Assembly: GCF_000186245.1 (NCBI RefSeq)
Contig: NC_014935.1
Span: 1,178,001 to 1,242,000 of the forward strand
Direction of reading: 5' to 3'
Source: Nitratifractor salsuginis DSM 16511
Lineage (GTDB): Bacteria; Campylobacterota; Campylobacteria; Campylobacterales; Sulfurovaceae
Length of the DNA stretch: 64,000 nucleotides
The position numbers and the translations under genes are program-made. How positions within the stretch are numbered: the first letter of the stretch is position 1; each line of letters opens with the position of its first letter. Below, piece by piece: positions 15,675 to 18,453 of this stretch. A model generated the notes under the pieces. That model saw nothing but the letters and a program-made list of their open reading frames with translations. It ran no database searches and was not told the DNA's origin.

Positions 15675-15774
15675 CCCTCCCGAAGCCACAATTTAGCAAT
15701 CGTTCTTTTTTTGACAAGTGCGACCGGCTATACTTCGAATGTCGGCTTCGACTATTAAACCACAAGGAGAGATT

Positions 15775-16491
15775 ATGTCACACCTTCAAACCGCGCTGAT
15801 TGACTTCCAAGGTGCAAATCTACTAACAGCGAAAGATGAAAAGACAGGCGTCATCTACGTTGCACTTAAACCTATTGTAGAAAGTATGGGGCTTTCTTGG
15901 GGGAGGCAATCGGAAAAGATAAAGAATGATACAAGGTATTCACTTATGTGTATCCCTTTTGTTACAAAGGGCGGAACGCAGGAGATGCTTAGCTTGGCGG
16001 TTGACCATCTCCCCGCGTTTCTCTACTCGATAAACCCTAACCGTGTGCGGAAGGATTTACGAGACCGTATTATAGCATTTCAGAGGGAAACCTTCGCCGT
16101 AATCAACGCCTATTGGCGCCAAAAGAGCAAAAAGTCCGCCCCCGACACCTTCGCCGCCGAGCGGATCGCCACGCTGGAGCAGCGGATTTACGCCCTTCAG
16201 CGGGAAAACACCGAACTCCGCCGCTCCATCAACCGGATCACCTACAACGACCGCCAGCTTCCCAAACTGGATGAAAAGCTGGCGAAGCTTTACATTAAAG
16301 GCGTCATTCCCGAATTGGGCCGGCGCATCAAGGAACTTCGGGACAAGATAGAAAAAGAGCTGGGAACCATTGGCCGCCCGTATGTCCGGGAACTGGAAGC
16401 ACTCTCCCGCTTCTTCGACGAAAAGCCCCAGGAGGGCGGAAACTTCATTGCGCTGGGAGATACGCTGTTTCCGCACGCTTTGATTAAGTGA
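15775..16491 (+). CDS. P22-type phage antirepressor (P22AR_N domain)
   Basis: 238 residues from ATG 15775 (AAGGAG upstream). Residues 1-125 match the P22 antirepressor N-terminal pattern: YVALKPIVESMGLSWGRQSEKI, then EMLSLAVDHLPAFLYSINP and RKDLRDRIIAFQRE, ending with a Y-W pair; only parts up to 20 residues are quoted. The C-terminal half is a long charged coiled coil (RIATLEQRIYALQREN). P22AR_N proteins bind and inactivate phage repressors. With its palindrome, neighbouring XRE regulator and strong promoter it forms an immunity-switch locus. A shorter start is favoured over an upstream in-frame ATG at 15718 lacking a ribosome-binding site. Confidence 0.85.
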   Translation: MSHLQTALIDFQGANLLTAKDEKTGVIYVALKPIVESMGLSWGRQSEKIKNDTRYSLMCIPFVTKGGTQEMLSLAVDHLPAFLYSINPNRVRKDLRDRIIAFQRETFAVINAYWRQKSKKSAPDTFAAERIATLEQRIYALQRENTELRRSINRITYNDRQLPKLDEKLAKLYIKGVIPELGRRIKELRDKIEKELGTIGRPYVRELEALSRFFDEKPQEGGNFIALGDTLFPHALIK

Positions 16492-16514
16492 ATTTGTTTG
16501 GAGGCATAAAGAGA

Positions 16515-16542
16515 GAAGCGACGGTTGGTTAGGCCGCCGCTC
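16515..16542. terminator. Convergent terminator hairpin after antirepressor and peptide A gene
   Basis: AAGCGACGG pairs with CCGCCGCT around a 9-nt loop, with short U-containing tails on both sides, between the convergent antirepressor and hydrophobic peptide A genes. The single mismatch on the rightward RNA becomes a G-U pair on the leftward RNA. Confidence 0.45.
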
Positions 16543-16553
16543 TTATCTACCCC

Positions 16554-16673
16554 TTAACCGTGAAAGGCAAGAAATAGATAAACGAGAACCATAATCAAGT
16601 AGCATAAAGCTACGATGATATAGGCGACTTGGTGGCTGGTTAAGCCGGTGAGTAGAAGTAATAATTGATGCAT
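16554..16673 (-). CDS. Hydrophobic 39-aa peptide A, candidate type I toxin
   Basis: ATG 16673 is preceded by GAGG six bases upstream. The 39-residue peptide is almost entirely hydrophobic: MHQLLLLLTG at the start, then a core containing SHQVAYIIVALCYL and a second hydrophobic stretch before a short FHG end. One long transmembrane helix is expected. The core H-x-V-A-Y-x-x-[IV]-A-x-x-Y-L recurs in peptide B (17001-17096). A terminator and a leader complementary to its ribosome-binding region and first codons lie upstream. Size, hydrophobicity and RNA arrangement resemble type I toxins of the Ldr/Fst kind or the small membrane toxins of Campylobacterota, but it matches none I know. Toxicity is inferred. 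Confidence 0.65.
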   Translation of the reverse strand: MHQLLLLLTGLTSHQVAYIIVALCYLIMVLVYLFLAFHG

Positions 16674-16808
16674 GTTGCACCTCATAAGATTGGGATACCA
16701 CCCCGCATCCCGGCAAAATCCAACCAAAAAAAAACCCCGACCATCCAAGGATGACCGGGGGAACCCATCTTATGAGGGACATGCTACTCACCGGTTGCCC
16801 AGCCACCA
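16630..16808. repeat. Interrupted long inverted repeat spanning peptide A start
   Basis: Left arm 16630-16694 and right arm 16764-16808 are complementary in three colinear blocks, for example CCTCATAAGAT with ATCTTATGAGG and GGTGGCTGG with CCAGCCACC. The left arm has one extra stretch of about 14 nt. The terminator lies in the spacer between the arms. Confidence 0.8.
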
Positions 16809-16885
16809 TACCTATACCGGGTAACCAGCCCGATATGATCCTCGTTTTCATCGAGGTTGGTGGTAGGTGTTCAAGGGCCACCTCT
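16726..16885 (-). ncRNA. Leader/antitoxin-like RNA A
   Basis: Leftward RNA of about 155-160 nt expected from a promoter near 16885-16911 (ATTAAGATT, then TTGCAGA near the start) to the U9 terminator. It contains three blocks that pair in order with the peptide A translation start: 16764-16777 with 16680-16693 (covers the ribosome-binding site), 16779-16784 with 16670-16675 (start codon) and 16784-16808 with 16630-16655 (codons about 7-15). An internal hairpin (CCTCG/CGAGG, about 16847-16863) adds structure. It could act in trans as an antitoxin or in cis when transcription reads through. Ends are estimated. Confidence 0.6.
16735..16760 (-). terminator. Terminator of leader RNA A
   Basis: On the leftward RNA a 10-bp stem (CCCCGGUCAU with AUGGUCGGGG) with two G-U pairs is followed by nine U (16726-16734). 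On the opposite strand the two G-U pairs would be A-C mismatches, which fixes the direction as leftward. Confidence 0.88.
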
Positions 16886-16964
16886 GCAAGTATGCTCTAT
16901 AAAATCTTAATTTCTAATTAATCCTTCACGCTGAAGGGCTTTATCTGCTGATTCAAATAAATAA

Positions 16965-16989
16965 CGCGGGGGGTGATGAGTCCCCCGCG
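16965..16989 (-). terminator. Terminator after peptide B gene
   Basis: GCGGGGG and CCCCCGC form a GC-only stem with a short loop, followed on the leftward strand by TTATTTATTT. It lies 12 bp after the peptide B stop and would end that transcript before module A begins. Confidence 0.75.
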
Positions 16990-17000
16990 CATCTCTTACC

Positions 17001-17096
17001 CTACCTGGAAGCCCAAGCAAGGTAGAGATAAATGATGGCTATGGCGACATATGCGACCCTGTGAGGTGTCACGACGCTGTGGATTAGCTCTATCAT
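17001..17096 (-). CDS. Hydrophobic 31-aa peptide B, candidate type I toxin
   Basis: ATG 17096 has AAGGGGG seven to eight bases upstream. The 31-residue peptide has a short polar start (MIELIHS) and a hydrophobic helix around HRVAYVAIAIIYLYLAW, ending ASR. The H-x-V-A-Y-x-x-[IV]-A-[LI]-x-Y-L core matches peptide A, so the two are paralogues despite different leaders. It is far too short for usual gene calling; support comes from paralogy, ribosome-binding site, the following terminator, and a 13-bp perfect complement of codons 3-7 in the upstream leader. One membrane helix is expected. Toxin function is inference. Confidence 0.65.
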   Translation of the reverse strand: MIELIHSVVTPHRVAYVAIAIIYLYLAWASR

Positions 17097-17143
17097 ACGA
17101 TCCCCCTTAACTGAGATCCCCACCCCTCAACCCAAAATTTTCC

Positions 17144-17292
17144 AAAAAAAAAGCCCCACCAGCCTCTTTTGAGACTAATGGGGCCTGCCACTCAATCAAG
17201 AGGGGGCTAATCCACAGCGCTGCACCTCATTCCGTCTCTCCAGCGGTAATCAGCCGCTTTTTCGGAGAGGCGGTTCAGGTAGCCGCCATCTG
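17144..17292 (-). ncRNA. Leader/antitoxin-like RNA B
   Basis: Leftward RNA of roughly 150 nt from a promoter near 17292-17316 (ATTAAGATT with AGTAATATGCAGA) to a U9 terminator. GCTAATCCACAGC (17206-17218, plus-strand reading) is a perfect complement of 17076-17088, inside the peptide B coding start; weaker complementarity extends over its AAGGGGG site and to CACCTCA further in. A strong compound hairpin (CTCTCC...AGCGG...CCGCT...GGAGAG, about 17234-17268) precedes the pairing block. Ends are estimated from promoter and terminator. Confidence 0.6.
17153..17184 (-). terminator. Terminator of leader RNA B
   Basis: On the leftward RNA GCCCCAUUAGUCUC pairs fully with GAGGCUGGUGGGGC (AAAA loop) using three G-U pairs, followed by nine U (17144-17152). 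The G-U pairs would be A-C mismatches on the other strand, so it works leftward only. Confidence 0.88.
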
Positions 17293-17359
17293 CATATTAC
17301 TAGTTGTAATCTTAATATTTTATTAAATTAGTTAATTTTTTAGCGCTAGAACGCATTAT

Positions 17360-18013
17360 TTACTGATTTAGATAAAACTTCTCCCGCGCCATATGCACCC
17401 ACTTACCGTTCAGCTTCCAATATACGTTCCACGTCTCCTCATTAGGCTTATTCAGGCACGAGAGGTTATCTCCGAGAATGATCGTCGAATTGCTCTTATT
17501 CAGCTTCTTCGGCGTGATGTCCGTCAATGTGCCGCCGCTCAGTTTCATATCGATCAGTCCACGCCGGTGCTGGCCCGTAAGAGTAGTATTTTGGAGCCCC
17601 CCATTGCCTTCTTTGTAAACAGCGACGGTATGGCTATCTATCTTCTCTGTCCTTCTGCCAAATTTCCGATTACCCTTGAAAGGACCCTTAGCAGCAATAG
17701 CCCAGTTTTTGGGAACGACATAACAGGGGATTTTTTGTCTGATTACTATTTTCCTTTTAGGTTCTCCCCCTCCTGTCATTTTGTAGAGATCATTTTTGTA
17801 GAGCCCCTGGTATATCACCATACTCTCCGCTTTTTGCATAGGGACTTTATTTGAATCCTTGATATTTTGATCTTTATCGACCCACTCCGCCCCCTTGTAT
17901 GGAAAATCCGAGAATCTGTATTTTTCTATCTCAGGCGGCGCCATATTCCCAGCATTTGCCCAGCCCGCCCCAAAAATCAAACCAACGGCGGCCACCTTTA
18001 AAAATCTTTTCAT
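17360..18013 (-). CDS. Secreted protein at end of phage early operon, 217 aa
   Basis: An N-terminal signal peptide is clear: MKRFLK, a hydrophobic core AAVGLIFGAGW, and an A-N-A cleavage-type end near residue 21. The mature part is about 195 residues, basic, Gly/Asn/Lys-rich, with two cysteines (in KIPCYVV and LSCLNKP). The start overlaps the RusA stop (ATGA), so it is the last gene of the leftward early operon. No family recognised. Export from the host cytoplasm suggests lysogenic conversion or surface exclusion rather than replication. Confidence 0.75.
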   Translation of the reverse strand: MKRFLKVAAVGLIFGAGWANAGNMAPPEIEKYRFSDFPYKGAEWVDKDQNIKDSNKVPMQKAESMVIYQGLYKNDLYKMTGGGEPKRKIVIRQKIPCYVVPKNWAIAAKGPFKGNRKFGRRTEKIDSHTVAVYKEGNGGLQNTTLTGQHRRGLIDMKLSGGTLTDITPKKLNKSNSTIILGDNLSCLNKPNEETWNVYWKLNGKWVHMAREKFYLNQ

Positions 18014-18453
18014 CTTCCTTCCTCCTTTGCATATTGATAAAACATTTCAGGACGCTCTTCGTCGCTCAAATCCTCCAATTCTACCACGATCCGGTTACAG
18101 TCGCCCCAGACCTTGTGTATCGACCCGCTCGCAACGGCCGAATCGTTACGGTACGCTATGCCTTCCAGCGCGTCTTTTATGGACTTCTCCAGATTGTCCT
18201 TGTCCGGCTTTTGCGTGTGCCAAAATGCCCGCTTCCGCTTCGCCTTGCTCCAGCTTTTGGGCTTCTTGAACTGAAACAAGATGTTCATTTTGACCGCTCC
18301 GGTAAAGGGGGCCTTGAGCTGCCGACGGGCAAGATAGCCGATGATCCGCTTGAAGTTACGGTAACTCTCCGGCATATACGCGCCGCTTTTCGTTACTCTC
18401 GGGCGCGGAGCCGGGACGGGGACGATGTCGAAAATCAAGATTTCTTTTCGCAT
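18010..18453 (-). CDS. rusA: RusA-like Holliday junction resolvase
   Basis: 147 residues from ATG 18453 (AGGAG upstream). The RusA pattern is visible: early strand IFDIVPVPAPRPRV, then KPDKDNLEKSIKDALEGI with the catalytic Asp pair, and a third acidic site in YRNDSAVASGSIHKVWG. These dimeric nucleases cut four-way junctions made in phage replication and recombination. It lies between a small unknown gene and the secreted-protein gene. I chose the internal ATG because the longer frame lacks a ribosome-binding site and overlaps the upstream gene. Confidence 0.87.
   Translation of the reverse strand: MRKEILIFDIVPVPAPRPRVTKSGAYMPESYRNFKRIIGYLARRQLKAPFTGAVKMNILFQFKKPKSWSKAKRKRAFWHTQKPDKDNLEKSIKDALEGIAYRNDSAVASGSIHKVWGDCNRIVVELEDLSDEERPEMFYQYAKEEGR

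Follow-up and report, generated by a model that had tools for sequence, protein, structure and literature searches.

What does a short leader RNA do when it is complementary to the start of the small gene directly downstream of it on the same strand? The question arose in the window (the whole 64,000-nucleotide stretch analysed here, NC_014935.1, positions 1,178,001 to 1,242,000) of Nitratifractor salsuginis DSM 16511, where a 39-codon gene for a hydrophobic peptide had been noticed behind such a leader. The sequence, its homologues and the pairing between leader and peptide mRNA were analysed computationally, and we consider it likely that the locus belongs to a set of antisense-RNA (type I) toxin-antitoxin pairs that work like par/Fst and have the gene order of type III systems.

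Two tandem modules in a prophage

Direct reading of the sequence placed the module, designated A, at 16514-16921 on the minus strand. A second module, B, lies directly upstream at 16963-17326 on the minus strand, with an identical order of elements, and the two differ in their peptides and leader loops. Module A consists of an AT-rich box, leader, terminator with T9, 52-nt UTR (G-rich at its start), GAGG, ORF and post-stop hairpin. The 5’ end of its leader RNA would lie at about 16889. The features of both modules are listed below.

16896-16921, minus strand: AT-rich promoter-like box of A, 84% shared with B; TATAGA at 16901-16896
16726-16889, minus strand: leader of A, the proposed antitoxin RNA of about 160 nt, based on its terminator end, complementarity to the toxin gene and fold
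16812-16838, minus strand: leader hairpin of A; loop CUGGUUA (16828-16822) matches the post-stop hairpin loop and has a covarying partner in homologues
16784-16808, minus strand: leader block of A complementary to codons 7-15 (16630-16655)
16764-16784, minus strand: leader blocks of A complementary to the ribosome-binding site (16680-16693) and start codon (16670-16675)
16726-16760, minus strand: intrinsic terminator of the A leader, stem 16760-16735 then T9; hairpin and T-run kept in homologues
16692-16725, minus strand: G-rich, C-poor conserved element at the 5’ end of the toxin 5’ UTR of A
16680-16683, minus strand: Shine-Dalgarno GAGG of A, from the sequence
16554-16673, minus strand: A peptide (proposed toxin), 39 aa, MHQLLLLLTGLTSHQVAYIIVALCYLIMVLVYLFLAFHG, single hydrophobic helix, from the ORF and family alignments
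16514-16544, minus strand: post-stop hairpin of A; loop CCUAACCAA (16533-16525) complements the leader loop
17300-17326, minus strand: AT-rich promoter-like box of B, 84% shared with A
17144-17290, minus strand: leader of B (5’ end approximate), with hairpin 17257-17243 (loop CUGAUUA) and terminator 17186-17151 plus T9
17206-17219, minus strand: leader block of B, 14 nt, perfect complement of 17075-17088 within the peptide gene
17001-17096, minus strand: B peptide, 31 aa, MIELIHSVVTPHRVAYVAIAIIYLYLAWASR, homologous to the A peptide
16963-16993, minus strand: post-stop hairpin of B; loop GACUCAUCA (16982-16974), of which 5/6 positions pair with the B leader loop

The original prediction had described the 39-codon ORF, the leader terminator (16760-16735 plus T9) and the complementary blocks, all of which were found where it had placed them: 16764-16777 is complementary to 16680-16693 (14 nt, 93%), 16784-16808 to 16630-16655 (88% self-match), and the start-codon block lies between these two. 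The extent it gave for the module, 16554-16911, was too short, as the post-stop hairpin at 16544-16514 is part of the unit.

Both modules lie in a prophage of a host whose genome is one contig of 2,101,285 bases. Neighbouring genes encode a P22-type antirepressor domain (15748-16491), RusA (18010-18450), a terminase, a cytosine (DNA) methylase and an amidase, and 14,381 bases of the IMG/VR record UViG_649633076 are identical to this region. Adjoining the two modules, at 17360-18013, is a gene for a 217-aa protein whose N terminus is signal-like and which matches nothing in Pfam; this protein was also seen near the homologous modules L007 and L018, the latter lying near a similar antirepressor gene as well, which suggests a prophage neighbourhood common to several species.

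Homologous modules in Campylobacterales

DNA, pattern and peptide-profile searches yielded 25 modules in total, namely A, B and 23 others (L004-L007, L015, L016, L018, L042-L046, L050, L058, L064-L068, L079, L082, L084 and L089), all in Campylobacterales genomes. The named relatives that carry a module are recorded as Campylobacteraceae MAGs. Common to all 25 is a layout of leader, terminator with T-run, G-rich element, ribosome-binding site, 24-39-codon single-helix peptide and post-stop hairpin, and in nearly all of them the hairpin falls at stop +2 to +18. The unusual arrangement noted at the outset, an RNA upstream on the same strand and set off by a terminator, thus holds in A and in every homologous module.

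The peptide profile outperformed an RNA model built from the T9/G-rich sequence alone in finding modules; the RNA model added few members because just 15 candidates per genome were scored. A genome pattern scan returned 12 matches, of which just L030, L033 and L035 (the same as L007, L004 and L005) were true modules, and the remainder were rejected since the layout was absent. Another group of candidates (L008-L010, L020, L023, L047-L049, L053, L069, L070 and L087) was read and likewise rejected.

A search of the phage collection found no DNA match to the module, and tblastn of the phage and plasmid collections with one family peptide gave no match. Rfam, Pfam, NCBIfam and PADLOC returned nothing above the curated threshold for either RNA or peptide, the family peptide profile matched no chain in the PDB, and PHROGs gave weak matches only.

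Seven modules (L042, L045, L046, L065, L079, L082 and L084) adjoin a transketolase-like gene, identified by reading its sequence; with this neighbour recurring in several genomes, the group appears to have a stable chromosomal position and not to be mobile. L064 (about 250-1600) was seen beside apparent phage structural genes, in the manner of an independently transcribed add-on gene.

A conserved single-helix peptide

The peptides are 24-39 aa long and contain a strongly hydrophobic stretch and the core [AGV]Y..hA..Y, the Y, A and Y columns being invariant in the family alignments (A7 and A8, which leave out A and L006). L006 is the most divergent module, and its family membership rests on layout and pairing and not on the peptide. 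Between close pairs, dN/dS values of 0.07-0.33 indicated purifying selection. The original prediction had been staked on conservation of the peptide frame, and across the 25 modules the frame is indeed conserved, with the Y/A/Y columns invariant in these alignments and dN/dS <1. Database searches matched the peptides to no known toxin family. The family peptide is most likely toxic when overproduced. In L082 (peptide start at about 1501), a TAA after 17 residues breaks the toxin frame; the leader, loops and terminator are kept.

Leader complementarity to the translation start

Each leader is complementary, in antiparallel orientation, to the ribosome-binding site, start codon and early codons of its own peptide gene. 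Summed over all modules, cognate start-site complementarity scored 1965, compared with 1277 ± 50 (maximum 1540) when leaders were reassigned, and 0/100,000 reassignments reached the cognate value. The cognate leader ranked first in 15 of the 25 columns; in most others a close relative scored better. The blocks in A chain into one antiparallel duplex that reaches about codon 32, with a complementarity score of 85; 100 dinucleotide-shuffled leaders scored 37.8 ± 6.2. Complementarity in A, L007 and L018 exceeds 100 nt and spans nearly the whole ORF.

A second, predicted contact between hairpin loops

A further contact, absent from the original prediction, would join a leader hairpin loop to the complementary loop of the post-stop hairpin in the same module. 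The matched sequences are CUGGUUA with UAACCA in A, L007, L018 and L067 (the L067 loop was assigned by hand, the automatic loop rule having chosen another hairpin), UUGCAG with CUGCAA in L004 and the reverse in L005, CGCCCAA with UUGGGCG in L015, and GGUAAA with UUUACC in L006. The B leader loop, CUGAUUA, differs from CUGGUUA of A at one position, where the partner loop of B is changed to match. Weaker matches were obtained for L043 (5 nt), L068 (4 nt) and B (one mismatch). The leader loop sequence CUGG/CUGA fits a YUNR U-turn in A, B, L007, L018 and L067; the transketolase-linked loops do not fit it.

Single loop matches are often non-significant (p = 0.19 for A, p = 0.74 for B), the signal lying in the set: the cognate loop sum was 139, against a maximum of 121 in 100,000 reassignments. 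With one module per close group and leader hairpin loops only, the cognate sum was 65 and the maximum 62, and 0/100,000 reassignments reached it.

Compensatory change and matched paralogues

Covariation was analysed in 10 modules that align over their full length, most of them beside the transketolase-like gene. At 18 leader/toxin pairs, standard base pairs occupy 96.1% of cells, and 8 of the pairs have changed on both sides. There were 27 compensatory cells, compared with 8.8 ± 2.8 in shuffles, and slid versions of the pairing were 30-56% paired. The six loop pairs were 100% paired, with three positions covarying. The sequences surrounding the loop are almost the same in L082 and L058, which differ at three positions of the loop itself, each of which is matched in the partner loop. 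The leader/toxin pairing is conserved with compensatory change; together with the conserved frame, this supports the original prediction's proposal of type I logic in which the leader covers the translation start.

One genome, G475, carries three modules (L044, L058 and L089) with the leader loops UUGUUG, UUACUG and UUGCUG, matched by CAACAA, CAGUAA and CAGCAA, respectively. The different matched loops of these paralogues suggest a need to avoid cross-talk in trans. Separate RNAs that have to recognise their own partner and avoid that of a paralogue would be expected to show this pattern; cis pairing would give the same pair counts.

Promoters, UTRs and predicted folds

The promoter-like box of the original prediction was borne out in part. 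Module A has no sigma-70 match at 9/12, just TATAGA at 16901-16896; the box is nevertheless largely shared by A and B, and an exact TATAAT occurs 93-119 nt before the T-run in 14/25 modules. No -10-like hexamer better than 4/6 was found in the toxin UTRs. With leader promoters that mostly look strong and a toxin UTR at or below 4/6, the leader RNA should be in excess. The toxin UTR is 47-53 nt long in 19 of the 21 modules compared. This fixed length favours a local toxin start, whereas the missing -10 favours read-through.

The conserved element between the terminator and the ribosome-binding site is rich in G, poor in C and contains four or more GG tracts; it is a candidate promoter, standby site or quadruplex. 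The GG tracts may reflect a G-quadruplex or composition. A sigma-54 promoter in this element was considered and dropped on inspection, as the GG-GC spacing in A is 9 and not 10 and B, L006 and L015 lack the motif.

Consensus folding of the toxin UTR revealed no covarying pair. Single folds are predicted to hide the Shine-Dalgarno sequence in a local hairpin in several modules, and the A toxin mRNA is more structured than its shuffles (z -4.1). The read-through RNA of A, proposed earlier to silence itself, is predicted to fold on itself with a z of -8.3.

Proposed mechanism and alternative explanations

In the proposed mechanism, the leader promoter would produce a short structured RNA that stops at its own terminator, and the neighbouring gene on the same strand would encode a small single-helix membrane peptide. 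The leader would recognise its own mRNA through a kissing contact with the post-stop hairpin loop, and leader and mRNA would form an interrupted duplex that covers the ribosome-binding site, the start codon and the early codons, blocking translation and probably exposing the start-site duplex to RNase. Paralogous modules in one cell would be insulated from each other since loop and start-site sequences are matched within each module and particular to it. The toxin mRNA may originate from a weak promoter overlapping the T9/G-rich element, or from terminator read-through followed by processing. The architecture, the conserved peptide, the cognate pairing and its covariation come directly from the computations; we infer in addition that two separate RNA molecules meet in trans, that translation is stopped and that the peptide is harmful to the cell.

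A rival on the RNA side is a switch acting solely in cis, in which one long transcript is made and, upon read-through, the leader folds onto the peptide start, with no free antitoxin in trans. The very stable fold of the A read-through RNA and the lack of a good promoter between terminator and peptide would suit such a switch, and covariation cannot tell cis from trans. We nevertheless regard it as quite improbable. A conserved strong terminator separates leader from toxin, so that most transcripts should stop short of the toxin; paralogues in the same genome carry different matched loops; and the toxin UTR is held to a nearly constant length. Chance ORFs in a meaningless inverted repeat left by an inverted duplication might account for complementarity over nearly the whole ORF in A, L007 and L018, but the covariation in diverged modules and the conserved peptide, promoter and terminator reduce this explanation to a negligible probability. 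Covariation refutes an inverted duplication as the whole story; as the origin of the antitoxin it may still apply, and from the long complementarity in these three modules we hypothesise that the toxin gene, copied in inverted orientation, gave rise to the antitoxin.

The peptide might also be under RNA control without being a toxin, for example as a regulator of a membrane enzyme or as a prophage exclusion factor. Type I-like RNA control is by itself no proof of toxicity, the peptides match no known toxin, and the stable site beside the transketolase-like gene in several genomes would fit a housekeeping role. This seems unlikely to us, since double silencing of so short a single-helix peptide is the usual picture of a toxin-antitoxin system, as are several copies per genome, an occurrence both in prophages and on chromosomes, and a leader retained next to a toxin gene with a nonsense mutation (L082). 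We therefore favour the toxin-antitoxin reading, and its assignment as a type I variant would stand once toxicity is proven.

If true, this reading adds a family of RNA-controlled membrane peptides in Campylobacterales with a gene order that two reviews (PMC4147584, PMC7472228) do not list for type I. Searches confined to the strand opposite a small ORF, the approach described in PMC12390103, would miss tandem systems of this kind. Since the pairing sites do not overlap in the DNA, the modules would offer natural sets of orthogonal loop codes that reveal specificity change, and a clean test of the origin of antisense antitoxins. More tentatively, and without yet leaning towards it, we propose a separate RNA toxin-antitoxin lineage, in which inverted duplication of the toxin gene would have given rise to the antitoxin, set upstream in tandem, and selection would keep the antisense pairing between the two non-overlapping genes. 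The post-stop loop and start region would form a changeable two-part address that insulates paralogues, and the terminator would set the antitoxin:toxin ratio as in type III systems.

Comparison with known toxin-antitoxin systems

In aapA/IsoA of Helicobacter pylori, a type I system from the same order, a short hydrophobic peptide is likewise combined with an antisense RNA. IsoA is a cis-antisense RNA that overlaps aapA, and this overlap sets the system apart, by description, from the tandem upstream RNA found here.

In its RNA logic the family follows par/Fst (RNA I/RNA II) of the Enterococcus plasmid pAD1, a type I system in which kissing of the 3’ hairpin loop is followed by start-site pairing and the Shine-Dalgarno is sequestered (PMC7472228). 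The modules described here share with it a single-helix peptide, loop complementarity at the post-stop hairpin and start-site complementarity, with physical contact predicted, as well as a Shine-Dalgarno in a local hairpin, predicted in several modules. The par genes converge and share a bidirectional terminator and direct repeats, whereas the present modules are tandem on one strand and their pairing sites are separate inverted copies. Complementarity in par is automatic because the genes overlap; here, with separate sites, it must be selected at two places. Fst also has a PXXXG motif, and inspection of the family peptide alignment revealed no conserved PXXXG. With its tandem genes and without this motif, the family is not a member of par/Fst.

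In the non-overlapping type I systems tisB/istR-1, shoB/ohsC, zor/orz and dinQ/agrB, the antitoxin RNA pairs with a part of the 5’ UTR at some distance from the start site (PMC4147584). As in these systems, the antitoxin RNA gene lies beside and not opposite the toxin gene. They are divergent, whereas the present modules lie on the same strand in all cases and have the start site and post-stop loop paired. In type III (ToxIN) systems, antitoxin RNA, terminator and toxin follow one another on a single strand (PMC4147584), an order shared by the present modules. The toxins of type III are RNases bound by RNAs made of tandem short repeats, whereas the gene product here is a 24-39-aa peptide whose mRNA is complementary to the antisense RNA; no tandem-repeat array was found in the leader. 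The type I arrangements that have been reviewed are opposite-strand, convergent and divergent, and tandem is not among them (PMC4147584, PMC7472228). The combination of par-like RNA logic with a type III-like order, and a tandem order outside the reviewed type I list, argues for a putative new type I variant.
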